A stretch of DNA of 64,000 nucleotides from a virus: the IMG/VR virus record IMGVR_UViG_3300032770_000002, positions 1 to 64,000 of that record; one strand, written 5' to 3'. This document shows, one piece after another, positions 22,369 through 49,063 of the stretch. The notes below the pieces were generated by a model. It was given only the letters and a program-made list of their open reading frames with translations. It made no database searches and was not told where the DNA came from. A program made the translations under genes and the position numbers. Each line of letters begins with the position of its first letter. The stretch's first letter is position 1.

Positions 22369-22684
22369 GTTGAAGACAGCAGTTGAAGCGGCGATGGCGC
22401 GGTCTGAAAAGTCCCACCTAATCCCGCCAATGACTCACCCGCTGTCTCAATACTGGGAACAACCCAATCGCTTTGACATTGAGGTCGATGAGACCCACGC
22501 GTTGATGGGTCAAACGACTTTCAACCTGCTCCACGACTACTCAAACTCACAGCCAACCGGAGCATATGAGGGTAAAATGTGGCGGGCTTTTTACAGGCTG
22601 GACGGCTGGTGTCTCCTGTGGTTCGGGCCCAGCGACAAACCTGACATGGTTTCGGTGAACGCTAGAAAAATTCTAATCGCATGA
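22361..22684 (+). CDS. Hypothetical protein
   Basis: 107 residues. N-terminal helix ([14 protein letters not shown]), then a compact alpha/beta part with aromatic strands ([16 protein letters not shown]). Overlaps both neighbours by a few bases, so it is translated as part of the gp46-thyA unit. Not recognised. Confidence 0.6.
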
Positions 22685-23568
22685 AAGAATATCTCGACTT
22701 AATGCACCGCGTGCTTCAAGGGAAGCGACGAAAGGACAGGACTGGAGTAGGGACCGTCGGCGTGTTTGGTGAACAGATTAAGATCGACTTGCAGAAGGGG
22801 TTTCCACTCTTAACGACAAAGAAACTCCACACCAAAAGCATCGTTTACGAGCTGCTTTGGTTCCTCAAAGGGTTGACTAACAACGACTGGCTTAAGGAGC
22901 GTGGCGTCACGATTTGGAATGAGTGGGCCGACGAGCACGGTGACCTTGGTCCGGTCTATGGGGAGCAGTGGGTCAAGTGGCACGGCCTTAAAAAGGACTG
23001 GATAGAGGATGATAACTTGGGCCCGCGTGAACCCATCTACCGTGAGGTGGTCGTGAATCAAATCGACAACCTCATTCGAGACTTAAAGGACAACCCATTC
23101 AGTCGGCGGCACATTGTCAGCGCTTGGAATGTCTCGATGATTCCACAGATGAGGTTGCCACCGTGCCACACACTTTGGCAGTGCTACGTTGAAGAGCCAA
23201 ATCAAGGTGACGACCACATCATCAGTGACTTTGACCGAAATTCGTTGAGCCTTCACCTCTACGCGCGAAGCATCGACCTTTTTCTCGGCTTGCCATTCAA
23301 CATTGCGTCATACGCCCTGCTTACGCACATGCTCGCGGCCGTGACTGGTTTGGCCGTTGGCCGGTTGATCATCTCATTCGGCGATCTGCACATTTACCTC
23401 AACCACATCGACCAGTGTCGTGAGCAACTGAATCGTGAGCCGAGGCCGCTGCCAAGACTGGCTTGGGGAAGACCGGACATCACGAGCATCTACGACTTCC
23501 AGTTTGAGGACTTCGTCTTTTGTGGCTACGATCCACACCCGGCAATCAAGGCTCAAGTTGCCGTATGA
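22681..23568 (+). CDS. thyA: Thymidylate synthase
   Basis: 295 residues, standard folate-dependent enzyme converting dUMP to dTMP. All key parts are present: RKDRTGVGT phosphate-binding loop, [24 protein letters not shown], the active-site Cys in [14 protein letters not shown] (C162), [26 protein letters not shown] with the dUMP-selecting Asn207, and [12 protein letters not shown]. It carries a short insert after WHGLKKDW and another after CYVEEP. A second TS-fold enzyme at 47539 has Asp at the Asn207 position and probably acts on dCMP. Joined by ATGA overlaps on both sides. Confidence 0.95.
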
Positions 23569-24414: not shown

Positions 24415-24743
24415 GTTTCGTAGAAGTTTCTCACGAGCTTGCAGACTTCCTCATGCATTGACTCGGCCTGTTCGATGGATCCGATGCACCGATTTTGGAA
24501 CGCGCTGAGTCGTTCATCGCCAAAGACCATCGTCTCCCAAAGTGGGCCCGGCGTAAACGTGATGTTGATCGGAAGTATAACCGTGCTGACTTCAGCCCGA
24601 TTGATGCGGTCTTTTTTAAGGACCACTCGCTTGGCCCATTCACCCCTTGACGACGAGCTAAAAACCCTGCTGAGCTCCTCAACGTTTGTCGCGCAAGCAG
24701 GTTTTCGGTCGTCGTCGATATACCAATATTCGAGCTCTATCAC
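24411..24743 (-). CDS. Hypothetical protein of the amidoligase operon
   Basis: 110 residues: MIELEYWYIDDDRKP, a basic middle (WAKRVVLKKDRINRAEVST) and a C-terminal helix ESMHEEVCKLVRNFYET. Joined to the AAA+ gene upstream and the membrane protein gene downstream by four-base overlaps. Not recognised. Confidence 0.6.
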   Translation of the reverse strand: MIELEYWYIDDDRKPACATNVEELSRVFSSSSRGEWAKRVVLKKDRINRAEVSTVILPINITFTPGPLWETMVFGDERLSAFQNRCIGSIEQAESMHEEVCKLVRNFYET

Positions 24744-25894
24744 TCTTCTCCTACGGATTCAACCGTGACACGGCCACCTCGCTTGAGAGCTTGGTTGCCG
24801 ATCAGGTTGTCATGTTTGGCTTGATTGACCTTAAGAATCTCGGTTCGGACGTGCGCGGTGGTCACTTTCCACCTGGAGCGTTCGATGCCGATGCACGCCG
24901 CGTCGATGGAGTTGAAGCATACGTTCTGGATGTCACCACCAGACAGGCCACTTGAAGCTTGCGCGGCCTCGATGAGGTCAACTTCAACTCGGCCATTCGC
25001 TGGCGGCAGGTGCAGTGAGAAAATGGCCTTGCGCATGTCAAGGTCCGGCAGGTCAAACTTGACGTAGCGGCTGACACGGCGCATGAACGCCTCGTCAAAA
25101 TGATTCAGCAGGTTCGTTGCCATCAGCACGGGCCCGTCATAGGCGTCAAGTGTTTGGATGAAGACATTCTTGTCGGCGTTAAGCCGTTGGGCCGTGGCTG
25201 ACGGCCAGAATGTCCTGGCGGCGCACAGTGAGTCGGCTTCATCGAGGAAGAGGATGGCGTTGTAGCGCTTGGCCCTGGCGAAAATGGCCTTTCGGCTTTC
25301 AGACCCTTGAACTTGGCCGTAGTCGACTTGGTAGAGGAGTTTGCCGAGTTTTTCGGCGATGGCGTGGATTGTGATGGTCTTGCCAGTTCCAGGCGGCCCG
25401 TAGAAACAGTAGACTGACCTGCGAACTGGGCAAATGGCTGTCAGGTTGAAGGCTTCGTCGATCTCCTTGCGCAACTTGATTGAGGCCACCGTCGCGTCGA
25501 CCTCTCCCTGGGCGCTGGGGTCTAGCACCACCCGCGAAAAGCTATTTTTTGGGCGCACAAGGTCACCAGGCCCGGCGTTGCAGTCCTGAAAAATTTCGGC
25601 GAGTTTCGATTCTGACTCAGAGCTGTTGGCCGCGGCGATGACGCTGTCAATGAGCGTCATGTCAACACACCCGTCATTGTCGTATGGGTAGGTTTCAAAT
25701 TCGACGATGAACCGGTCAATGATCAAGGCCTTGTCGTCAGGGATGGCTGTAAACCTTCGTCGGAAGTTCACAAGTGAAAGCTTGAACCGCGAGCCACCGT
25801 TTCCGACGGCTCGGTAGTGGACGGTGTCGTTGTCACGCTCAAGCACCTCGTAAGGCCTGTGCGAGTTGTTGTGGCTGTAATATCGATTTGGCAT
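24740..25894 (-). CDS. AAA+ ATPase
   Basis: 384 residues with an AAGGAA ribosome site. The first ~150 residues are a unique domain. The AAA module follows: Walker A GPPGTGKT (166-173), Walker B ILFLDEADS (~214-222), sensor 1 VLMATNLLNHFDEAF and the arginine region MRRVSRYVKFDLPD, then a helical lid with GLSGGDIQNVC. The form is closest to the classical AAA clade (proteasomal/FtsH/BCS1-like unfoldases), so it should remodel or unfold a protein. It sits between the amidoligase genes and a small membrane protein gene in one operon. Confidence 0.85.
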   Translation of the reverse strand: MPNRYYSHNNSHRPYEVLERDNDTVHYRAVGNGGSRFKLSLVNFRRRFTAIPDDKALIIDRFIVEFETYPYDNDGCVDMTLIDSVIAAANSSESESKLAEIFQDCNAGPGDLVRPKNSFSRVVLDPSAQGEVDATVASIKLRKEIDEAFNLTAICPVRRSVYCFYGPPGTGKTITIHAIAEKLGKLLYQVDYGQVQGSESRKAIFARAKRYNAILFLDEADSLCAARTFWPSATAQRLNADKNVFIQTLDAYDGPVLMATNLLNHFDEAFMRRVSRYVKFDLPDLDMRKAIFSLHLPPANGRVEVDLIEAAQASSGLSGGDIQNVCFNSIDAACIGIERSRWKVTTAHVRTEILKVNQAKHDNLIGNQALKRGGRVTVESVGEE

Positions 25895-25901
25895 AGGTTC
25901 C

Positions 25902-26192
25902 TTATGGCTTATTGGTGTCTATAAACTTGCGCAATTCAGCGTCTATCAGCGATAGACGGTTCAGGTCATTTTTGGTCTCTTCGACTCCTGGCTCGAGGAC
26001 CGTCATGATGCTGGCAAACAAGTGGTGGGCCCCGAAGAAGAACGCCTTGCGGCATTCTCGCCTTTGAACCTCACTCATTTTGTCCAATCCAGTTAGGATC
26101 TCGTAGGCGCGCCAGCCTCCTTCGACGACGAGGCCCTTGTCGTTCAGTTCCTTGGTTATCTGCTCAACGGCCTTCTTTACGTTCTCGTTCAT
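25902..26192 (-). CDS. Small conserved phage protein
   Basis: 96 residues from the ATG at 26192, which forms ATGA with the amidoligase stop; an ATG at 26201 is possible. Helical, with KGLVVEGGWRAYEILTGL, QRRECRKAFFFGAHHLFASI and ETKNDLNRLSLIDAELRKF. This arrangement is common in small phage proteins of unknown function. Part of the amidoligase operon. Confidence 0.65.
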   Translation of the reverse strand: MNENVKKAVEQITKELNDKGLVVEGGWRAYEILTGLDKMSEVQRRECRKAFFFGAHHLFASIMTVLEPGVEETKNDLNRLSLIDAELRKFIDTNKP

Positions 26193-27217
26193 ACGTTCCA
26201 TGTTCCTGCGCAGATTTTCTCAAACGTCTCCTGGGTGAACGTCTCAGCGCTTTTAAACGTCACCCCAGAAGCCTTCACGCCGTCAACAAATCCGACACAC
26301 ATCCGGATCCACGCGCCGACCTTGCGCATGGCGACGGTCGACTCCATCATGCGAAATTCAACGACCTTTCGACTGAATGTCCTGGTCCAGTTCAGGCCGT
26401 GATAGCGGTCACTGTGGTTGCGCCACCCACCGCAGCCATCAAGGACGCGCTCGATGCTCTGTGACTCGATCATGTCCATGATGCGGTGGGTTGGGTTGCG
26501 TTCGCAGTAGTGGTTGTGCTGGCGGCTTTCGTTGCACTCAGCGTAGAAAAATTCTTGGGCCTTGAGGTAGGCAATGGCGAGCCGCTTCAGGTCCGCTGGA
26601 TTGTGGTCGCTGACGTCGATGGTGACGTGAAGCCCACACTTCGAGTTGACCGCGTTTGGACAGACCTCGCGAATTTTTTCGACGGCGAGCTTGGCGTCAA
26701 AGATGCCGGCTTCGCCTGAGAGGATCGGTGACGCAAACTCGTAACCGCAGGAGCCGTCGCGCTTGACGTCCCACTGCCGGCCATCGGAGTGAAAGTAGTC
26801 GCCCGTTCGAAGGTTGACTTTCAGGCCTCGTTCTTGCATCTTGCCGGCGATTTGAGCTGGGGCCAAGTTTGAGTGGGTTTCAACCTCAACCCCAAAGCGC
26901 CGGCCAACTGAGCTTGGGCGCTCTTCAATGACTTTGACGTTTGGCGTGTCTGTCACGGATCGGCCTGCTTCGGTTCCACTTGACCGGATGACCTGATATG
27001 GGTTGTCTTTGCGCTTGGTCTTTTCTTTAAACTTTTTGTCCCAAGCGGCCTGTCGCACGGCTGGGTCTTCTGACACGACAAGCACCTTCGTTTGGCCCTT
27101 GGCCCCGATGGCTCCCCATGTCGAGATGACCTGGTGTCCGTCATCGTCCAATTGGAAAAACTTGTTGCACTCGCCTCCATCTTGGAGGCCACGATTTTCA
27201 AGGTAGACGAATTTCAT
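26189..27217 (-). CDS. WGR domain fused to amidoligase-family enzyme
   Basis: 342 residues. Residues 1-75 match a WGR domain: NKFFQLDDDGHQVISTWGAIGAKGQTKV then AVRQAAWDKKFKEKTKRK, with the WGR tripeptide present as WGA (34-36). Residues ~105-300 follow the Amidoligase_2 family (COOH-NH2 ligase of the glutamine-synthetase fold): RRFGVEVET (107-113), WDVKRDGSCGYEFASPIL with acidic D150/D154 and E160, NSKCGLHVTIDVSD (192-204), a YLKAQEFFYAEC helix and VVEFRMMEST (285-294). Such enzymes use ATP to make amide bonds between carboxyl and amino groups. WGR domains are best known from PARP-type proteins and bind nucleic acid. The fusion and its operon are the notable feature. Confidence 0.75.
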   Translation of the reverse strand: MKFVYLENRGLQDGGECNKFFQLDDDGHQVISTWGAIGAKGQTKVLVVSEDPAVRQAAWDKKFKEKTKRKDNPYQVIRSSGTEAGRSVTDTPNVKVIEERPSSVGRRFGVEVETHSNLAPAQIAGKMQERGLKVNLRTGDYFHSDGRQWDVKRDGSCGYEFASPILSGEAGIFDAKLAVEKIREVCPNAVNSKCGLHVTIDVSDHNPADLKRLAIAYLKAQEFFYAECNESRQHNHYCERNPTHRIMDMIESQSIERVLDGCGGWRNHSDRYHGLNWTRTFSRKVVEFRMMESTVAMRKVGAWIRMCVGFVDGVKASGVTFKSAETFTQETFEKICAGTWNV

Positions 27218-40056: not shown

Positions 40057-42720
40057 ATGAGCCAAGACATCACAATTCAAACGTTTCCCGGGGTCTACGT
40101 CAACGTCCTTGACAACAGCTTTCCGACGAACATCGTTAGCCGATATAGTCTCGGCGTCACGGGCGTGGCATCCAAGGGGCCAATGAACGTCCCGACTCGG
40201 ACGCCATCCGTTACTTCATTCGTCAGCCAGTTTGGAAAGCCAGTTACGTCGAACCCAATGCCTGCCCAAGCCGTTGCGGCTGTGGGTGACTTTTCCGACG
40301 GCACCTGGTTTAACCGGGTCGGCCACGTCTACTCTGCCGTCGCAAGTGACGCGGCGAGTGTCGTTGGCTCAGGGTCGCCAGACCCATACAAGATTTACAC
40401 CTCATCGGCCAAGGACTTTCAACTTGGCGACTACATTCGCATCGTCGAGGCCGGCAAGATTTCGACGGTTAACGCGAGGGTCTCAGACTACATTCCTTCA
40501 GGCAACGTCATCAACCCGACTGGCCTTCAATTGGTGAGCACTGGTCCTGAAGCGGTTGAACTGGCCGACGACTACGTCAGCGCGTTCATTGACCGGAGTG
40601 AAGCCACGGACGCCGCGTCCAACGCCGAGTCATTCCTCAGTTCCATTGTCTACGGCGATAGCAACTATGTTGAAAGCGCCGGCTTCGTGACAGGGAGCAA
40701 GACGTCCTACAGTTTTGACGTCGATGGCTTTGTTGGGCCGCTGCCAATTACCAGCCTTGTCGTTTCCAGCGGCGTGGCCACGCTGACAATGTCCAACATG
40801 CCACGTTACCAAGTCGGCGATTACGTCCACATCGCCAACGCGGCCGTTAGCGGGTGCAATGGTGAGTTCGTCGTTCTCACAAGCGACCTCAGCAGTCAGA
40901 TCACCTTCAACGTGCCTGGCGAACTTGGGCCAGAGCTGCTTACGGGTGAAGCCCCTGTGGGTGGTTATGTGACCATCGACACGACTCCTGGAGCGTCTTA
41001 CGACTACACCAACGGCGTTGGTGAGACCCTCATCAATGGCGCCGCGCAAACTCAGACTACCGGAACGGTGGTTGCTCAGGGAAGCTTTATTCGAGTCTAC
41101 ACGTCGGCGCCGACGGCCACTGGGTCGTTGAAGCTTGTCGAGGGCGTGGCCGATGGAACGATCGCCGTGGCCGATGGTGCGACGGCTATCACCGTGGCCA
41201 TTCTTGCCCCTGGCGACCTCATCAAGATCGTTCAAACCAGTGGAGGTGGCCGGTCGACGACCTATGAGGCGATGGTCCAAGAAATCATTGGTGGGACGCA
41301 CGTCAATCTTTACCCGTCAAATGTGACGAACATCGGTTACCAGGCCGTGTCGCTGCAGGACAACTATTCAGCTGGCAACATCTATAAGGCTCACCGCGAC
41401 GCAAACGGCAACCTTGTCACGACGCTAGCCATTCACATGATTGCCGCCTCTGCCGGCACGTGGGCAAACAGTGACGGCGTTGCAAATGGACTGTGGGTCA
41501 CGGTGTCTCCTGGCGCCAACGCTGGCACGAAGAAGTTGCTCGTCTACGTTGACGGCACACTGGTTGAGACGATCGACAACTTGTCGATGGATTCGAGCTC
41601 AACGGACTACTTCCCAGCTCGCATCAACGGGCTCTCACAAAACATCGCCATCTTGACTGACACCGCTGGCAACCCAATTGGCATGCTTGGCTCTAGTCCG
41701 CCCGCCAACACGATGAACGGCTGGTCTGGCGCTTCGCAGAAGGTCAATTTTGCGGTCTTTGGCGACGAGTCACTCAACTATGGCCAAGGCTTTGACGGCG
41801 AAGTGATGACCACGCAGGACGTCATCGGCACGCTGTCTTCGACTGGAGCTTACACCGGGCTGCGGGCCTTCACACGCCCTGGCTCGAATTACAACTTGAG
41901 CGACCTCATCTGTCCTGGCATCACCGACTTAGCAGTGCACCAGGAAATGATCCTCATTGCCACGAAGATTTTTGCTGAGGCGCTCATTGACTCGCCAAGT
42001 GGGATAAACGGCCGACAGATCGTTGATTGGAGCAATGGCGCTGGAGACTATTCTGGCTCGCGTGCGGCCATTACAGCTTGGCAGGCTTCGCTGCCATGGA
42101 ATTGGATCAGCATCACTGACCCATTTACGGGCAACTCCATCAGTATCCCGCCGACAATCGCCTTGGCTCGCCAACGGGCCTTTACGTTTGACCACTTTAA
42201 GCCGTGGTATGCGGCTTCCGGCGTGAATCGTGGCGTCATCTCGATTGCCAACAGCGTCGAGTTTGCCACGGTCGATGATGACACGCGAAATGGCTTCATG
42301 GCATCAGGGCAGTCCATCACGCCCATCCTGGATGACTTTGGTCAAATCTTGGTCTGGGGCGACAGGACACTTCAGCGGACCAACTCCAAGCTGATCCAGC
42401 TGAGTGTGGCGACGCTGGTCAACTACCTGGCACTGAACATTGGGCAGCTTGGTCGGAAGTATATCTTCGACCCCAACGACCAGGAGCTGATCGTCCTCTT
42501 CACGAACGACCTTCGGTCGCTGTTTGAAGGGGTCAAGTCTGACCGTGGTATTTCGGACTACAATGTGGCCGCGGACAACTCGATCAACACGCCCGAAGTG
42601 CAAAACCAGCACGCAGCCATTGTCAACGTGGACTTCATTCCATTTGGGTCACTGGAGCGGCTCTACGTCAACCTGATTGTCGATCCTTCGGGCGCTACGA
42701 TCACCAACATCACGGGCTAG
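40057..42720 (+). CDS. 18: Tail sheath protein, gp18-like
   Basis: 887 residues. N-terminus is the classic sheath start: QTFPGVYVNVLDNSFPTNI, RYSLGVTGVASKGPMNVPT, SFVSQFGKP. The C-terminal core has DHFKPWYAASGVNRGVIS, VWGDRTLQRTNSKLIQLSVATLVNYL and DVNVAADNSINTPE-type strands ending in EFIPFGSLERLYVNLIV-like sequence. The middle carries large beta-rich inserts, making it longer than T4 gp18 (659 aa); these would project outward on the sheath. The sheath contracts to drive the tube through the host envelope. An antisense endonuclease gene overlaps its last 11 bases. Confidence 0.93.
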   Translation: MSQDITIQTFPGVYVNVLDNSFPTNIVSRYSLGVTGVASKGPMNVPTRTPSVTSFVSQFGKPVTSNPMPAQAVAAVGDFSDGTWFNRVGHVYSAVASDAASVVGSGSPDPYKIYTSSAKDFQLGDYIRIVEAGKISTVNARVSDYIPSGNVINPTGLQLVSTGPEAVELADDYVSAFIDRSEATDAASNAESFLSSIVYGDSNYVESAGFVTGSKTSYSFDVDGFVGPLPITSLVVSSGVATLTMSNMPRYQVGDYVHIANAAVSGCNGEFVVLTSDLSSQITFNVPGELGPELLTGEAPVGGYVTIDTTPGASYDYTNGVGETLINGAAQTQTTGTVVAQGSFIRVYTSAPTATGSLKLVEGVADGTIAVADGATAITVAILAPGDLIKIVQTSGGGRSTTYEAMVQEIIGGTHVNLYPSNVTNIGYQAVSLQDNYSAGNIYKAHRDANGNLVTTLAIHMIAASAGTWANSDGVANGLWVTVSPGANAGTKKLLVYVDGTLVETIDNLSMDSSSTDYFPARINGLSQNIAILTDTAGNPIGMLGSSPPANTMNGWSGASQKVNFAVFGDESLNYGQGFDGEVMTTQDVIGTLSSTGAYTGLRAFTRPGSNYNLSDLICPGITDLAVHQEMILIATKIFAEALIDSPSGINGRQIVDWSNGAGDYSGSRAAITAWQASLPWNWISITDPFTGNSISIPPTIALARQRAFTFDHFKPWYAASGVNRGVISIANSVEFATVDDDTRNGFMASGQSITPILDDFGQILVWGDRTLQRTNSKLIQLSVATLVNYLALNIGQLGRKYIFDPNDQELIVLFTNDLRSLFEGVKSDRGISDYNVAADNSINTPEVQNQHAAIVNVDFIPFGSLERLYVNLIVDPSGATITNITG

Positions 42721-43258
42721 TGGGTCTAATGTCGTTGATTACGGCAAATCGACCGAAGGCTTTTCTGGCCGCTCTATTGTAGGCTTTGGCTGCAGCAAGT
42801 TCACTTCGAAACATTCCAATTAGTCGGCCTTTTTTGTTGACTTGGATTTTAGCCTTCCAAAGGCCAGTCTTGGAATGGAGATGAACACCTTTAAATTTTG
42901 ATGTTAGACCTGATCGTCGGTCTTTTGGCCGATTACCCTGTTGTTGCACTTCTGTGGCCACTCTAAGATTGCAACGACGGTTGTCAAGACGCTCTCTATT
43001 AATGTGATCGGGTTCGCAACCACGCGGCACATTAATGATCCAGTAGGCCATCTGTAAATTTGCATGATTGGCGTAACCGTTATGTCCAAGATGCCATCTA
43101 TGTTTGTTGAGGCGGTCATAGTCGCGATTATTTACTATAGTGAAACCACACGAAGTGAAAACGGTATTACGTCCAGGGCGTCCAGGATGAATGGCTCTAA
43201 CAAGTTGAATGAGTCTTGCGTCAGGATCAAGAAGTGCTTCAAAGAATGCTACCGTCAT
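42710..43258 (-). CDS. HNH homing endonuclease with AP2 DNA-binding domain
   Basis: 182 residues from the ATG at 43258 (MTVAFFEALLDP). HNH module: FTIVNNRDYDRLNKHRWHLG, then GCEPDHINRERLDNRRCNLRVAT with the D-H...N...N catalytic spacing. C-terminal AP2 domain: SKFKGVHLHSKTGLWKAKIQ, GMFRSELAAAKAYNRAARKAFG. Such genes cut intron- or gene-free alleles and spread by repair. It sits antisense in the gap between sheath and tube genes, and its base composition is more AT-rich than these neighbours. A similar gene lies at 45384. Confidence 0.85.
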   Translation of the reverse strand: MTVAFFEALLDPDARLIQLVRAIHPGRPGRNTVFTSCGFTIVNNRDYDRLNKHRWHLGHNGYANHANLQMAYWIINVPRGCEPDHINRERLDNRRCNLRVATEVQQQGNRPKDRRSGLTSKFKGVHLHSKTGLWKAKIQVNKKGRLIGMFRSELAAAKAYNRAARKAFGRFAVINDIRPTSP

Positions 43259-43339
43259 TGATTCCAAGAACTGTAGATAAGCTGTGGAAAAGATGATTTT
43301 TATCGTCAGCGAAAAATTAGTAAATCCATCTAAGCCGTT

Positions 43340-43951
43340 ATGAGCAAAATGCTCTACAAAAATGAATGGGGCAGCCAAGGGTCAAACCTTGACCCACAAC
43401 GCACAGACCTGTTCCGGTTTTGGATCAACCTGCCGGCTGTCATTGGCGGCATGGGAAACTGGCAGGAGAACGTGTCGTTCGCCGTCCAGTCGTTTCCGTT
43501 CCCTGAACGCGCGCAGCAGACCTTTGAGATGAAGTATCTCAACCAGGTCAACCACATCCTCGGGTCTGACACGCCGACAGGGCCGATCGAGGTCCCTGTT
43601 CGCTACGCATTCACCCAGCCGACGGCTCAACTGCTCTATCGCTGGCACTACCTGACGTCGAACCCTCGAACTGGCTCAGTTGTTCGCACGACTCAGATCA
43701 AGACTTACGGGTTTTTCGCGTGGCTCATCCCGAGAAAGTTGACTCCCGACATCATCGACCAAATGGAAGTCGACCCGAACGCGCTTCAAATTGGCATGCA
43801 GTATCAGCTCGAAGGATGCATGCCGATCAACCTCAAGCCGACGGACGCCAACATGCTTGAGGGCAACGTGCCAGTCACGTTGACGTTCCGCCTGCAAATC
43901 GACAGGTTTTACCCGGTGAGTGTCGACGCGTCGAACATGATCTTTGCTTGA
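43340..43951 (+). CDS. 19: Tail tube protein, gp19-like
   Basis: 203 residues. WGSQGSNLDPQRTDLFRFWINLP, SFPFPERAQQTFEMKYLNQVNHI, PVRYAFTQPTAQLLYRWHYLTS and a C-terminal GMPI-type strand (GCMPINLKPTDANMLEGN, VTLTFRLQIDRFYPV) match the gp19 tube fold. It polymerises on the baseplate along the tape measure. A paralogue with the same N-terminal pattern (GSNFEPQRSDLWILDL) is at 55268. A bidirectional terminator follows. Confidence 0.85.
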   Translation: MSKMLYKNEWGSQGSNLDPQRTDLFRFWINLPAVIGGMGNWQENVSFAVQSFPFPERAQQTFEMKYLNQVNHILGSDTPTGPIEVPVRYAFTQPTAQLLYRWHYLTSNPRTGSVVRTTQIKTYGFFAWLIPRKLTPDIIDQMEVDPNALQIGMQYQLEGCMPINLKPTDANMLEGNVPVTLTFRLQIDRFYPVSVDASNMIFA

Positions 43952-45383: not shown

Positions 45384-45881
45384 TTAAAAATTTAATTTGG
45401 CAAAGGAACCAAAAATTTTTCTGGCTTGACGATCATAAACCACGGCCGCTTCCGCTTCATCGTCAAACTGCCCAATAAAATTGTGTTGAACGCTAACACT
45501 CCATTTTCGATTTTGCTTATTCCAACTAACTCCTTTAAATTGACTTGAACGATTTGGGGTTTTACGTCTATTTGCGGTATTTTGGGCATGGGTCGCTGGT
45601 CGAAGATTTGACCGTGTATTATTCAGACCGTCACCGTTTTCGTGATCAACCTCTGGCAATCCAATTTTTGCAGCTATTTCACGGTGCATGTAAACACTCT
45701 TCTCACCGGCCGACGGGACGCTCTTGGCATACCAGTAAGTTTTATGTTTTGTTTGACTCTTTACCGCATACCATTTTCGTAGACTAAGCCATTCAAAATC
45801 TTCATCATCGACTAAAGCCGATTTATTTTGCGTAAGCGGTATTCTTTTCACTAAAAATTTCCGATGACCAGTGCCGGGCAT
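45384..45881 (-). CDS. HNH homing endonuclease with AP2 domain
   Basis: 165 residues from the ATG at 45881 (MPGTGHRKFLVKRIPLTQ). HNH part: ALVDDEDFEWLSLRKWYAVKS, then MHREIAAKIGLPEVDHENGDGLNN and TRSNLRPATHAQN with the D-H and N residues of the family. AP2 part: SSQFKGVSWNKQNRKWSVSVQ, GQFDDEAEAAVVYDRQARKIFG. AT-rich compared with its neighbours. It begins inside the last 31 bases of the carbamoyltransferase gene, so the intruder sits at the end of the putative DNA-modification operon. Confidence 0.85.
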   Translation of the reverse strand: MPGTGHRKFLVKRIPLTQNKSALVDDEDFEWLSLRKWYAVKSQTKHKTYWYAKSVPSAGEKSVYMHREIAAKIGLPEVDHENGDGLNNTRSNLRPATHAQNTANRRKTPNRSSQFKGVSWNKQNRKWSVSVQHNFIGQFDDEAEAAVVYDRQARKIFGSFAKLNF

Positions 45882-47542
45882 GTCTGCTGGTCTGCCTTTT
45901 TTGCGTTGAACCGCAGGTCGTTTATGGCGTCTTCGACGCTGAAAACAATTGGCACGCCGTGGACGTTGAACGACGTGTTTATCAACGGAGTTCCGCACTC
46001 CTCAAGGATGCGTCGAATTGGAGCGGGTTCTGTCGGGTAAATGATTTGCGGCCTTCCTGACCATGAACTTTGGTCAGGATAAACGTGGGCGACGCCCATA
46101 AAATTATCCACAGGACGGACGTAATTGAGCGTCGTGATCATGTAGCGTTCTGAACCGACAACTCTGTTGAGGTTTGATTCAAAGGCCCACTTCGCCCACC
46201 TGGATGAAACGACCGGGGCAAATGGCATGACCGTATTTCGGCCGTTGATGTAATTGATGGTGTCAACATTTTCACTCGTCGGAACGGCTAGCGTGGACGT
46301 GTTGCAGAGTGCTCGCGGGCCAAACTCCATGTTTCCGTGGATGGTGTTGACAAGTTTGTTGGCCTTCAACAATTGCAAGACCTGCTCAATGTAGTCGTCA
46401 AGCGTGTGGGCAACGCGAACGTCAAGCTCGTCGCCATTGAGCATGATTCGCCTGAACGAAAGGTCACGCCTTCCCCACTTGAGCGACGTGAACGGAAATG
46501 AATATCCCTTGGAGGCGTAGACTCCGATCGCCGCTCCTTGGTCACCAGCAAGTGGAACTGCGCAAAACTGGCCGGAGATGGAGCTGAGAATGGAGTGGTT
46601 TAGCTTGACGTTGTAGTGCACGCCGCCTGTCACGATGACGTGCTTGACTCGGCTCCACGTCAAGATGAACCGGTAGGCTTCTTCGATGACCGTTTGAATG
46701 TAGTGGCCAACCACGACTCGAGTTTCCCACTGGTTAACGGTATTTAGGGCCTTGACGATCTTTCTCAGCCTTGCCCTGATTTTTCGTCTGGCCGACTCCA
46801 TGTCGTTAACTTGGATGAAGTCATCGAGTTTCGACTCCTGAGGGCGGAGAAAATTTGCGCTGCAAATCGAGGCCCACTCTTCGGCGTGGTCTTTTGCCAT
46901 CTGACGAAGCCACTCGATTTCCCGGCTACGGAGGACTTCGTTGACGTGACTCTCATAGCCTAGAAATTTATACTCGTCTTGGTTCATCGTCATCCCGACA
47001 AATTCAGTGGCATACTGGTAAAGCAATCCAAGTGACTTGTCGTAACCGTAGATCCGTGAAAGAAGTTGTGGCGTCCAACGCTCGGTGTCCGGCTGAATGA
47101 CGTAGATGGAAAACACCTCTTGGGCTGTGCCAAAACCGTCACTGACGACGATGTGGACGTCCCCCTCCGGCACTTGGCGCATGTGGCGTCGGTAAAATTC
47201 CACGGCCGCCCAAGCGTGTGAGTCGTGGTGTGTAAATCTGTGGTCTACGGACACGATCTTGCACTTTGGCAGGAACGTGCGAAGCACGTCAGGCTGCCAA
47301 TACTTCTGGAGCCTTGCGTGACGGGCTTTTTCAAGATTTTCACAGTCAAACCAGTGTGAGACGTAAACCGTCACGTCCTTCTTGAGCTTGGTGTGCTTGA
47401 TGACCTCATTGATGGCGTTGATTGGGAAGCGTGAGTCACTTTTCTTGCGAGTAAGCCGCTCTTCTTCGTATCCAATAACGTCAACGCCGTCGGTCCAGAT
47501 GGCCGAGGCATTGTGTCCGAGTGTGAGAAGTAGGTTGTTCAC
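45851..47542 (-). CDS. Carbamoyltransferase (NodU/CmcH/TobZ family)
   Basis: 563 residues with both domains of the family. The N-terminal Kae1-like domain has LLTLGHNASAIWTDG, EEERLTRKKSDSRFP and the metal-binding VDHRFTHHDSHAWAA (H105, H106, H109), then SDGFGT, FLGYESHVNEVL and VVTGGVHYNVKLNHS. The C-terminal YrdC-like domain has HGNMEFGPRALCNTSTLA, INYINGRNTVMPFAPVV and PLINTSFNVHGVPIV. These enzymes use carbamoyl phosphate and ATP to O-carbamoylate a hydroxyl group. The next gene upstream in the operon encodes a dCMP hydroxymethylase-like protein, which would supply a hydroxymethyl acceptor on cytosine. A sugar acceptor is the alternative. Confidence 0.9.
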   Translation of the reverse strand: MNNLLLTLGHNASAIWTDGVDVIGYEEERLTRKKSDSRFPINAINEVIKHTKLKKDVTVYVSHWFDCENLEKARHARLQKYWQPDVLRTFLPKCKIVSVDHRFTHHDSHAWAAVEFYRRHMRQVPEGDVHIVVSDGFGTAQEVFSIYVIQPDTERWTPQLLSRIYGYDKSLGLLYQYATEFVGMTMNQDEYKFLGYESHVNEVLRSREIEWLRQMAKDHAEEWASICSANFLRPQESKLDDFIQVNDMESARRKIRARLRKIVKALNTVNQWETRVVVGHYIQTVIEEAYRFILTWSRVKHVIVTGGVHYNVKLNHSILSSISGQFCAVPLAGDQGAAIGVYASKGYSFPFTSLKWGRRDLSFRRIMLNGDELDVRVAHTLDDYIEQVLQLLKANKLVNTIHGNMEFGPRALCNTSTLAVPTSENVDTINYINGRNTVMPFAPVVSSRWAKWAFESNLNRVVGSERYMITTLNYVRPVDNFMGVAHVYPDQSSWSGRPQIIYPTEPAPIRRILEECGTPLINTSFNVHGVPIVFSVEDAINDLRFNAKKADQQTCPALVIGNF

Positions 47543-48510
47543 TTTCGCTTGTCTATCGCGTTAAATAGCAGGTTCATGACGCACTGGTAGTGGACATATT
47601 TTGAATTGCCACGAGACGTGGTGCAGAACAGCGACCTCATGGCAGGTGAAATTGGAGCTGTCAAGTTTCCTTCAATCGTCAGCAGGTCATGAAGCAACAT
47701 CGAGGCTTCGCCGGGCTCTAGCGGAGGAAATGTCAGAGCCATGCCAGCGGGTTCACCGACTATAAGCGTGTCATCTCGAACGTGGAATGAACCGACATTG
47801 TGGTGGTAATAACCCATCTTAATGCCACTTCGGCCTTTTCCCCAAAGTTCGGCACGGACATAGTCCATCAAAAACGTAAAGAAGGCCACGTCATATCGAA
47901 ATCCATTCCACAGTTCATTGGACCGCATTGTCGCAATGGCGTGAAGCGCACCGTCACGCACTAAAAATTGCAAACTGGTCGTGCAAATGTGGTCTTTTGT
48001 GTCACTGAGATTGACCCTGGGACGGTTAAACAGGACGACGGCTTGCCTTGACATCGGGTCCTTTGCCAACCGCTTGATGGCCAACTCAAGCTGTCCTTCC
48101 TCGAAGACATACTGGCCGTAATTCGAGTTGATGTCGACACGCGTGTCTTCTGGAATGCTGCCGTCACGATGTTTGGCTGCGACGTTGTCCGTGATGCGTT
48201 TCCACATGTCTGGCCGATACTTGTCGATGCCATGAAGACGCTGATCGGCTTTGGCATACCACGCCAATTGGGCACCGACGTAGTCAATGTCGTCTTCAGG
48301 CCTTGAGGTTTGGGTGAAAAAGACCGCCCCTGGGACTTCGACGCTAAAGTGAAAATTCAGCAACTCGAGCCAACGAACGCCCTGGTGGTCTTCGACAACT
48401 GGAGCCTTGCAGAGTTGGTCGATACAGCTTGAAAATTTCAGCCCAAGTTTTTCATCCTTTTGCAATGTAGGCGTCGATGATGCTGTTGATGGTATTGACA
48501 TCGGTTTCAT
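47539..48510 (-). CDS. dCMP hydroxymethylase-like enzyme (thymidylate synthase family)
   Basis: 323 residues from the ATG at 48510; a TTG at 48465 is possible because this gene overlaps the kinase by 59 bases. The TS fold is clear: SNYGQYVFEEGQLELAI, DPMSRQAVVLFNRP (R155), SDTKDHICTTSLQFLVRDG with the catalytic Cys176, then MRSNELWNGFRYDVAFFTFLM and NVGSFHVRDD. Where thymidylate synthases have Asn (N207 in the ThyA at 22681), this protein has Asp207 (RYDVAF). That Asn-to-Asp change is the hallmark of T4 dCMP hydroxymethylase (gp42), which makes 5-hydroxymethyl-dCMP. Substrate is inferred from this residue. It overlaps the carbamoyltransferase gene by four bases. Confidence 0.78.
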   Translation of the reverse strand: MKPMSIPSTASSTPTLQKDEKLGLKFSSCIDQLCKAPVVEDHQGVRWLELLNFHFSVEVPGAVFFTQTSRPEDDIDYVGAQLAWYAKADQRLHGIDKYRPDMWKRITDNVAAKHRDGSIPEDTRVDINSNYGQYVFEEGQLELAIKRLAKDPMSRQAVVLFNRPRVNLSDTKDHICTTSLQFLVRDGALHAIATMRSNELWNGFRYDVAFFTFLMDYVRAELWGKGRSGIKMGYYHHNVGSFHVRDDTLIVGEPAGMALTFPPLEPGEASMLLHDLLTIEGNLTAPISPAMRSLFCTTSRGNSKYVHYQCVMNLLFNAIDKRK

Positions 48511-49063
48511 TGTCAGCGCTGACTTCGGTTATTTGGGACGACTGGTAGAAGCCGTGGATAAGCGTCCGGATAAACAAGAACTCGACATCCTGGAGAAGCC
48601 CCAGTTCGTTTGGGCGCATCGCATCAGACTCCTTTTTAGGCAACGGCCGAAACAGGAAGATGTGGTCGTAGGTTCTTGCGGTGGTCAGCGTTCGAAAGTA
48701 AAGCCACTTGAAGAAGCTCGTGTATTTTTCGAGCTGCAAGCTTGTCAACATTGACTTGTCAACGTAAAAAACGTAGTAGAAAAATGAATCGGCAAGTGAC
48801 CGGTCGGTCAGGATGATGGAATTCGGGTGTTTCTTGAGGGCGGCCTGTTCAGCGTTGAACTTCTCGCTGATGATTTCAATTTGCAGTTCAATGTATCGGA
48901 CTGGGTCCCGTCGAAGGGCGTCAATGTTGTCAATGCTAGCCCGGTCACGAATGCAGTCGCCAAGAACGACGACCCCGTTATAGTTTGTCCTTTCGGCAAT
49001 CTTTCGAATCATCGTGGACTTGCCCGAATGACACGCACCAGAAAAAGCGATCAACTTGCTCAT
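48452..49063 (-). CDS. P-loop kinase, NadR/AAA_28-like (possible nucleotide kinase)
   Basis: 203 residues. Walker A-like FSGACHSGKSTMIRKIAE (residues ~7-24), then ILTDRSLADSFFYYVFYV, the DR-x-x-x-D pattern of deoxynucleoside and NadR-type kinases, and a lid-like IFLFRPLPKKES. It probably phosphorylates a small molecule. As first gene of the operon with the dCMP hydroxymethylase-like enzyme, it could be the nucleotide kinase that takes hydroxymethyl-dCMP towards the triphosphate, the job done in T4 by gp1, though it is not a gp1 homologue by sequence that I can see. Confidence 0.68.
   Translation of the reverse strand: MSKLIAFSGACHSGKSTMIRKIAERTNYNGVVVLGDCIRDRASIDNIDALRRDPVRYIELQIEIISEKFNAEQAALKKHPNSIILTDRSLADSFFYYVFYVDKSMLTSLQLEKYTSFFKWLYFRTLTTARTYDHIFLFRPLPKKESDAMRPNELGLLQDVEFLFIRTLIHGFYQSSQITEVSADNETDVNTINSIIDAYIAKG

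Follow-up and report, generated by a model that had tools for sequence, protein, structure and literature searches.

A candidate phage cassette for carbamoylated cytosine whose thymidylate synthase-like protein lacks the folate-activating glutamate

The 64,000-nucleotide stretch analysed here (the window; positions 1 to 64,000 of IMG/VR record IMGVR_UViG_3300032770_000002) comes from a viral record of 230,253 bases and carries a minus-strand cassette of three complete, translationally coupled open reading frames (ORFs) for a P-loop kinase, a thymidylate synthase (TS)-fold protein and a NodU/TobZ-type carbamoyltransferase. With a probability of about 0.62, we read this cassette as a variant of the phage pathway to 5-carbamoyloxymethylcytosine, in which the hydroxymethylase would be encoded at 188 kb of the genome and the TS-fold protein, a paralog of deoxycytidine monophosphate (dCMP) hydroxymethylase, would work beside the kinase. 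The pathway itself has been known since 2021; what is new is a cassette paralog without the glutamate that activates folate. The record belongs to a large T4-like phage, with a major capsid protein, portal, prohead protease, tail sheath and UvsX-like recombinase of that kind. The features on which the argument relies are the following:

45851..47542, minus strand: predicted 5-hydroxymethylcytosine-type O-carbamoyltransferase of NodU/TobZ fold (563 amino acids, GTG start; Carbam_trans_N/C)
47539..48510, minus strand: TS-fold paralog of dCMP hydroxymethylase without a Glu60 equivalent (323 amino acids; Thymidylat_synt 3.4e-8)
48452..49063, minus strand: P-loop nucleoside/nucleotide kinase of thymidylate kinase/deoxynucleoside kinase fold (203 amino acids; Pfam AAA_28, dNK)
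48268..48270, minus strand: Gln81 codon (CAA) at the position of T4 gp42 Glu60 and E. coli TS Glu58, by alignment
47983..47985, minus strand: Cys176 codon, equivalent of the nucleophile (gp42 Cys148, TS Cys146), kept, by alignment
47914..47916, minus strand: Glu199 codon at the position of gp42 Asp171, a pterin contact, by alignment
47890..47892, minus strand: Asp207 codon, the cytosine-specifying aspartate (gp42 Asp179), kept, by alignment
22681..23568, plus strand: canonical ThyA, apart from the cassette (Glu58, His147 and Asn177 present; E 5e-105)
Genome 187967-188797 (L012:7967-8797), outside the window and 140 kb away: third TS-fold gene, dCMP hydroxymethylase candidate (Cys148, Asp179, Glu60, Asp171, Tyr218 and Asp145 all present)
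Genome 184575-187388: class II ribonucleotide reductase, upstream neighbour of the preceding gene

The original prediction had described the three minus-strand genes much as we find them, with complete ORFs, matching Pfam families and a 59-base overlap between the kinase and TS-like genes; only the junction with the carbamoyltransferase differs, the 4-base overlap of stop and start being GTGA and not ATGA. It had also placed a normal ThyA at 22681, which is indeed canonical, and because of this separate gene the cassette enzyme is not needed for deoxythymidine monophosphate. Its Asp207 does align with the position of E. coli TS Asn177 and T4 gp42 Asp179. What it overlooked are Gln81 at the place of the catalytic glutamate and the second Asp-type TS-fold enzyme elsewhere in the genome. 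On the sequences compared here, the pathway that it proposed is probably right and its choice of hydroxymethylase probably wrong.

The TS-like protein is related to the hydroxymethylases in sequence and fold. Its best solved relatives are T4 gp42 (3e-18) and MilA, and its AlphaFold2 model (pLDDT 81) finds MilA and T4 dCMP hydroxymethylase (dCH) as top folds; since the model best matches these two enzymes, the fold and ligand class are likely unchanged. It is no ThyA, as Asp207 and Thr177 replace Asn177 and His147. Like T4 gp42 (PDB 1b49, 6a9a), it retains the equivalents of Cys148, Tyr96, Asp145, Arg168, Asp179 and His216, and thus both the catalytic cysteine and the cytosine-specifying aspartate. 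Unlike gp42, it has Gln for Glu60, the residue for activation of methylene-tetrahydrofolate, Glu for Asp171 and Arg (Arg245) for Tyr218, and the equivalent of Arg220 is changed as well. Gln81 falls in an ungapped part of the alignment (YVGAQLAW in the window against YIQRELEW), and a study of T4 dCH describes Glu60 (Glu58 in E. coli TS) as conserved and catalytic in all members of the TS/CH/dCH group. Because the equivalent of this residue is lost, the cassette protein is not supported as the hydroxymethylase; a complete hydroxymethylase gene exists outside the window. The paralog, its attacking cysteine kept, is probably still able to bind a cytosine nucleotide, whereas activation of methylene-folate has probably been lost. 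Nothing relevant came from a literature search for a TS E58Q mutant.

The gene at 187967-188797 is, by its residues, the better hydroxymethylase candidate, and in the tree its product groups with the hydroxymethylases of other carbamoyltransferase contigs (99/93 support). The carbamoyltransferase is full length (Pfam Carbam_trans_N 5e-14, Carbam_trans_C 1.7e-24). The original prediction knew of no described phage pathway of this kind, yet one was published by Yang et al. in 2021 (eLife e70021, PMC8670742), who associated carbamoyltransferases with modified cytosine in environmental phage DNA. One purified enzyme, followed by liquid chromatography-mass spectrometry, converted 5-hydroxymethylcytosine in DNA and 5-hydroxymethyl-dCTP to 5-carbamoyloxymethylcytosine in vitro with ATP and carbamoyl phosphate; 5-hydroxymethyl-dUTP was no substrate (PMC8670742). 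In the same work, carbamoyltransferase genes lie beside TS-fold genes, the two co-occur in modified contigs only, and the top differential positions are W408, G421 and R423 (TobZ numbering) in the carbamoyltransferase and 147 and 177 in TS. Our literature search found no other paper naming 5-carbamoyloxymethylcytosine, and no phage isolate bearing a carbamoylated base is described in the papers searched.

The window enzyme departs from the TobZ-type residues at these positions associated with modified DNA, having T/C/T at 408/421/423, with mostly V/I/L-C-T in its relatives and the Gly and Arg of 421 and 423 kept in outgroup enzymes; it is also paired in the genome with a cytosine-type TS-fold gene. 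Its closest annotated phage relatives are those of Xanthomonas phage Xp15, Acinetobacter phages Effie, HHU4 and MD-2021a, and Bacteroides phage BF503P1 and kin; the Xp15, Effie/HHU4 and BF503P1 enzymes are 36-38% identical over 96-99% of its length and each lies near a TS-fold gene. In IMG/VR, the window enzyme as a single query gave no match, and an alignment of its phage relatives as query gave 63 loci; 46 related records were searched for a TS-fold gene, and 44 of these viral contigs contain one. Sequence, residue signature and genomic context thus assign the enzyme to the 5-hydroxymethylcytosine carbamoyltransferase family, and the original prediction that it acts on hydroxymethylcytosine gains from the in vitro chemistry of that family (PMC8670742). 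Relative to the pathway of Yang et al. 2021, the cassette shares the carbamoyltransferase family, the residue positions and the pairing with a cytosine-type TS-fold gene. It differs in that its TS-fold gene lacks Glu60 and is coupled to a kinase of another group, that neither PRA-PH nor dCMP deaminase genes are neighbours, and that the candidate hydroxymethylase is encoded elsewhere.

The kinase was classed by Pfam (AAA_28 1.1e-11, dNK 3.8e-6) and fold, a PDB search having found no sequence relative. Its AlphaFold2 model (pLDDT 89) has thymidylate kinases and deoxycytidine kinase as best Foldseek matches, and with its P-loop and TMK/dNK fold it belongs to the deoxynucleoside/thymidylate kinase superfamily. 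T4 requires a kinase of its own for 5-hydroxymethyl-dCMP, and a 5-substituted dCMP is the probable substrate of the cassette kinase. Among named phages, this kinase was found only in six Bacteroides phages that have the same cassette.

Other phages, as a search suggested by the original prediction revealed, also carry this set of three coupled genes, so the cassette is not due to chance. Four arrangements were separated across the carbamoyltransferase loci. In the Xp15 type, the only hydroxymethylase is intact and is accompanied by PRA-PH, a dCMP deaminase and a kinase-like gene of another kind. The window type (L015, L017-L020; L016 is cut) runs from the kinase through the Glu60-less TS to the carbamoyltransferase; the Glu60 and Asp171 positions are Gln and Glu, and L018 shows the same 59-base overlap. 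In the Bacteroides type (L003, L032, L036, L038, L041, L043, L049, L050), the carbamoyltransferase comes first, then the kinase and then a paralog whose position 60 is Leu, Met or Ile, and a second, intact enzyme lies nearby in all seven loci uncut by a contig end; the window genome likewise has one. The fourth arrangement places short paralogs (190-270 amino acids), which keep the Cys, Arg and Asp equivalents and have no Glu-x-x-Trp motif, between the carbamoyltransferase or kinase and, mostly, an intact hydroxymethylase. The intact enzyme stands alone at loci L030, L059, L061, L064, L065, L069 and L071. Kinase and paralog genes share 4-59 bases in the window and at each of the 15 loci of the two long types that could be read.

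Short, highly divergent TS-fold proteins of about 190-270 amino acids (L021, L022, L023, L025, L026, L027, L028, L029, L031, L033, L035, L051, L124, L173) keep the Cys, RASD and cytosine Asp, have lost the sugar-site histidine and are not reported by the Pfam TS model when the records are searched with it. On iteration, the short-paralog profile spread to TS proteins in general and was used for homology only.

Among cultured relatives, Bacteroides fragilis phages BF503P1, BF503P2, BF503P4, BF486P2, BF486P3 and BF494P1 all carry the carbamoyltransferase and the kinase, and BF503P1, the one of the six examined for it, has both a Glu60-less paralog and a separate intact hydroxymethylase. These phages differ from the window in gene order (carbamoyltransferase-kinase-TS), in Leu for Glu60 and Tyr for Trp80, and in having the intact enzyme just 2 kb away. 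Xanthomonas phage Xp15 (gp35-gp39) resembles the window in that a kinase-like gene and a TS-fold gene encoding the cytosine Asp lie close to its carbamoyltransferase gene, whose product is 36% identical; it differs by one intact hydroxymethylase with Glu60, another kinase family, and the presence of PRA-PH and deaminase. Xp15 gp40, directly upstream of the carbamoyltransferase, was tested as a possible unrecognised TS paralog, but iterated searches with its 21-locus family brought in no TS protein, and the idea was rejected.

All 47 related hydroxymethylases compared have Glu60 and none of the 13 long cassette paralogs does, a contrast that defines the two groups. Asp171, which does not define them, is found in 47/47 and 2/13, respectively (Fisher 2e-10, a value that ignores shared ancestry), and Cys148, Tyr96, Asp145, Arg168, Asp179 and His216 are common to all hydroxymethylases and long paralogs compared. 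Within the reach of pattern-based scans, which may miss distant copies, Glu60-less paralogs occur only on carbamoyltransferase contigs (5 window-type, 9 Bacteroides-type and 16 short-type loci). With the window paralog type as query, 26 further loci (L133-L158) were retrieved whose TS-fold genes keep Glu-x-x-Trp, L140 being ambiguous. The long paralogs form two clades, and the well-supported branches force a minimum of two changes, so that Glu60 may have been lost independently; we do not claim convergence, because one clade remains compatible with the approximately unbiased test (p 0.258).

In the mechanism that we favour, the dCMP hydroxymethylase of 187967-188797 would make 5-hydroxymethyl-dCMP, and the cassette kinase would raise the 5-substituted dCMP towards the triphosphate. 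The carbamoyltransferase, with carbamoyl phosphate and ATP, would transfer a carbamoyl group to the hydroxymethyl while the base is in a nucleotide or in single-stranded DNA, like its characterised relative. The TS-fold paralog would bind a cytosine nucleotide beside the kinase; instead of producing the hydroxymethylated or carbamoylated nucleotide, it would act on it together with the kinase. There the paralog may catalyse its own reaction, deliver substrate or hydroxymethylate slowly. The sequence shows the genes with their families, the loss of the glutamate, the coupled and recurrent arrangement, and a separate gene for an intact hydroxymethylase; the carbamoylation chemistry is taken from the literature on another family member, while for this phage we infer all substrates and the role of the paralog.

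Several points weigh against this mechanism. Loss of the glutamate does not prove loss of hydroxymethylase activity; the groups compared are defined by this very residue, and their counts are inflated by related sequences. No intact hydroxymethylase was found on the other contigs with a window-type paralog, although this says little because those records are all fragments, the longest of 93.6 kb. Moreover, profiles for PRA-PH, MazG, dUTPase and dCMP deaminase recognised nothing in the 230 kb record, despite its own ThyA and ribonucleotide reductase, which leaves no recognised enzyme that would exclude unmodified dCTP.

NodU/TobZ relatives act on sugars and antibiotics, and distant cyanophage Nol-like relatives lie among unrelated genes without a TS neighbour, as would be expected if the carbamoyltransferase modified a host or phage glycan and its TS neighbour were coincidental. 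We regard this as highly improbable. The TS-fold genes on 44 of 46 contigs and the residue signature speak against this subfamily acting on sugars or capsules, as do the only 3 matches in 85,462 prokaryote genomes, all on short metagenome-assembled contigs carrying a TS-fold gene. The original prediction had counted an association with capsule or lipopolysaccharide genes as evidence against itself; close relatives lie not in glycan clusters but in phage-like surroundings that include a hydroxymethylase.

The remaining alternatives largely concern the job of the middle gene only, and their likelihoods overlap with that of the preferred mechanism. That the paralog is a working dCMP hydroxymethylase in which another residue or a water network stands in for Glu60, the 188 kb enzyme being redundant, is the version originally predicted. 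The kept Cys, Tyr, Asp145, Asp179 and phosphate arginine fit it, as do the best matches to hydroxymethylases, the place next to the carbamoyltransferase as in single-enzyme phages, and the lack of a second hydroxymethylase on related contigs of its own type (all fragments). It is nevertheless unlikely in view of the described conservation of Glu60, the altered Asp171, Tyr218 and Arg220 equivalents, and the intact enzyme that coexists in the window genome and in 7/7 uncut Bacteroides-type loci. It is possible, if doubtful, that the paralog has no catalytic function and instead, as a subunit of the kinase, regulates it or delivers its substrate, or else forms a heterodimer with the intact hydroxymethylase: paralog and kinase genes are translationally coupled in nearly all long-type loci, and T4 dCH is a dimer whose active site takes arginines from the opposite protomer (PMC6400193). 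However, every copy of both long families, and each of the 11 short paralogs that were aligned, has the nucleophilic Cys, and a partner with only a structural role would not need it. Quite improbable, finally, is a folate-independent enzyme acting on 5-carbamoyloxymethyl-dCMP, from which carbamate or phosphate would leave to give an exocyclic methylene and a new nucleophile would be added, resulting in a hypermodified cytosine. Residues for the C6 adduct and cytosine binding are kept while folate-specific ones are lost, and the paralog is found only with the carbamoyltransferase; against this, a comparison of neighbours across groups showed that all paralog types share only the carbamoyltransferase, the TS family and the kinase, with no common gene to supply the nucleophile. 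In a broader and still rather unlikely form, carbamoyltransferase phages would have evolved, perhaps repeatedly, a folate-independent, kinase-coupled TS-fold enzyme with new chemistry on 5-hydroxymethyl- or 5-carbamoyloxymethyl-dCMP, and the DNA base would then be more than 5-carbamoyloxymethylcytosine.

Elsewhere in the window, two related-looking HNH-type homing endonuclease ORFs lie on the minus strand at 42710-43378 and 45384-45998; the latter has an HNH_3 match just under the cut-off and overlaps the downstream end of the carbamoyltransferase gene. An amidoligase-family protein (26189-27217, minus strand; phrog_2443, 1.4e-29) adjoins an AAA-type ATPase (24740-25894).

To conclude, the carbamoylated base has so far been known from one purified enzyme, and cultured phages are now identified in which it can be looked for directly, namely Bacteroides BF503P1 and kin, Acinetobacter Effie and Xanthomonas Xp15. 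Should the Glu60-less paralog catalyse its own reaction, it would represent a TS-fold enzyme no longer using folate, and such a reaction would explain why the gene pair recurs in distant phages and is found only with this carbamoyltransferase.

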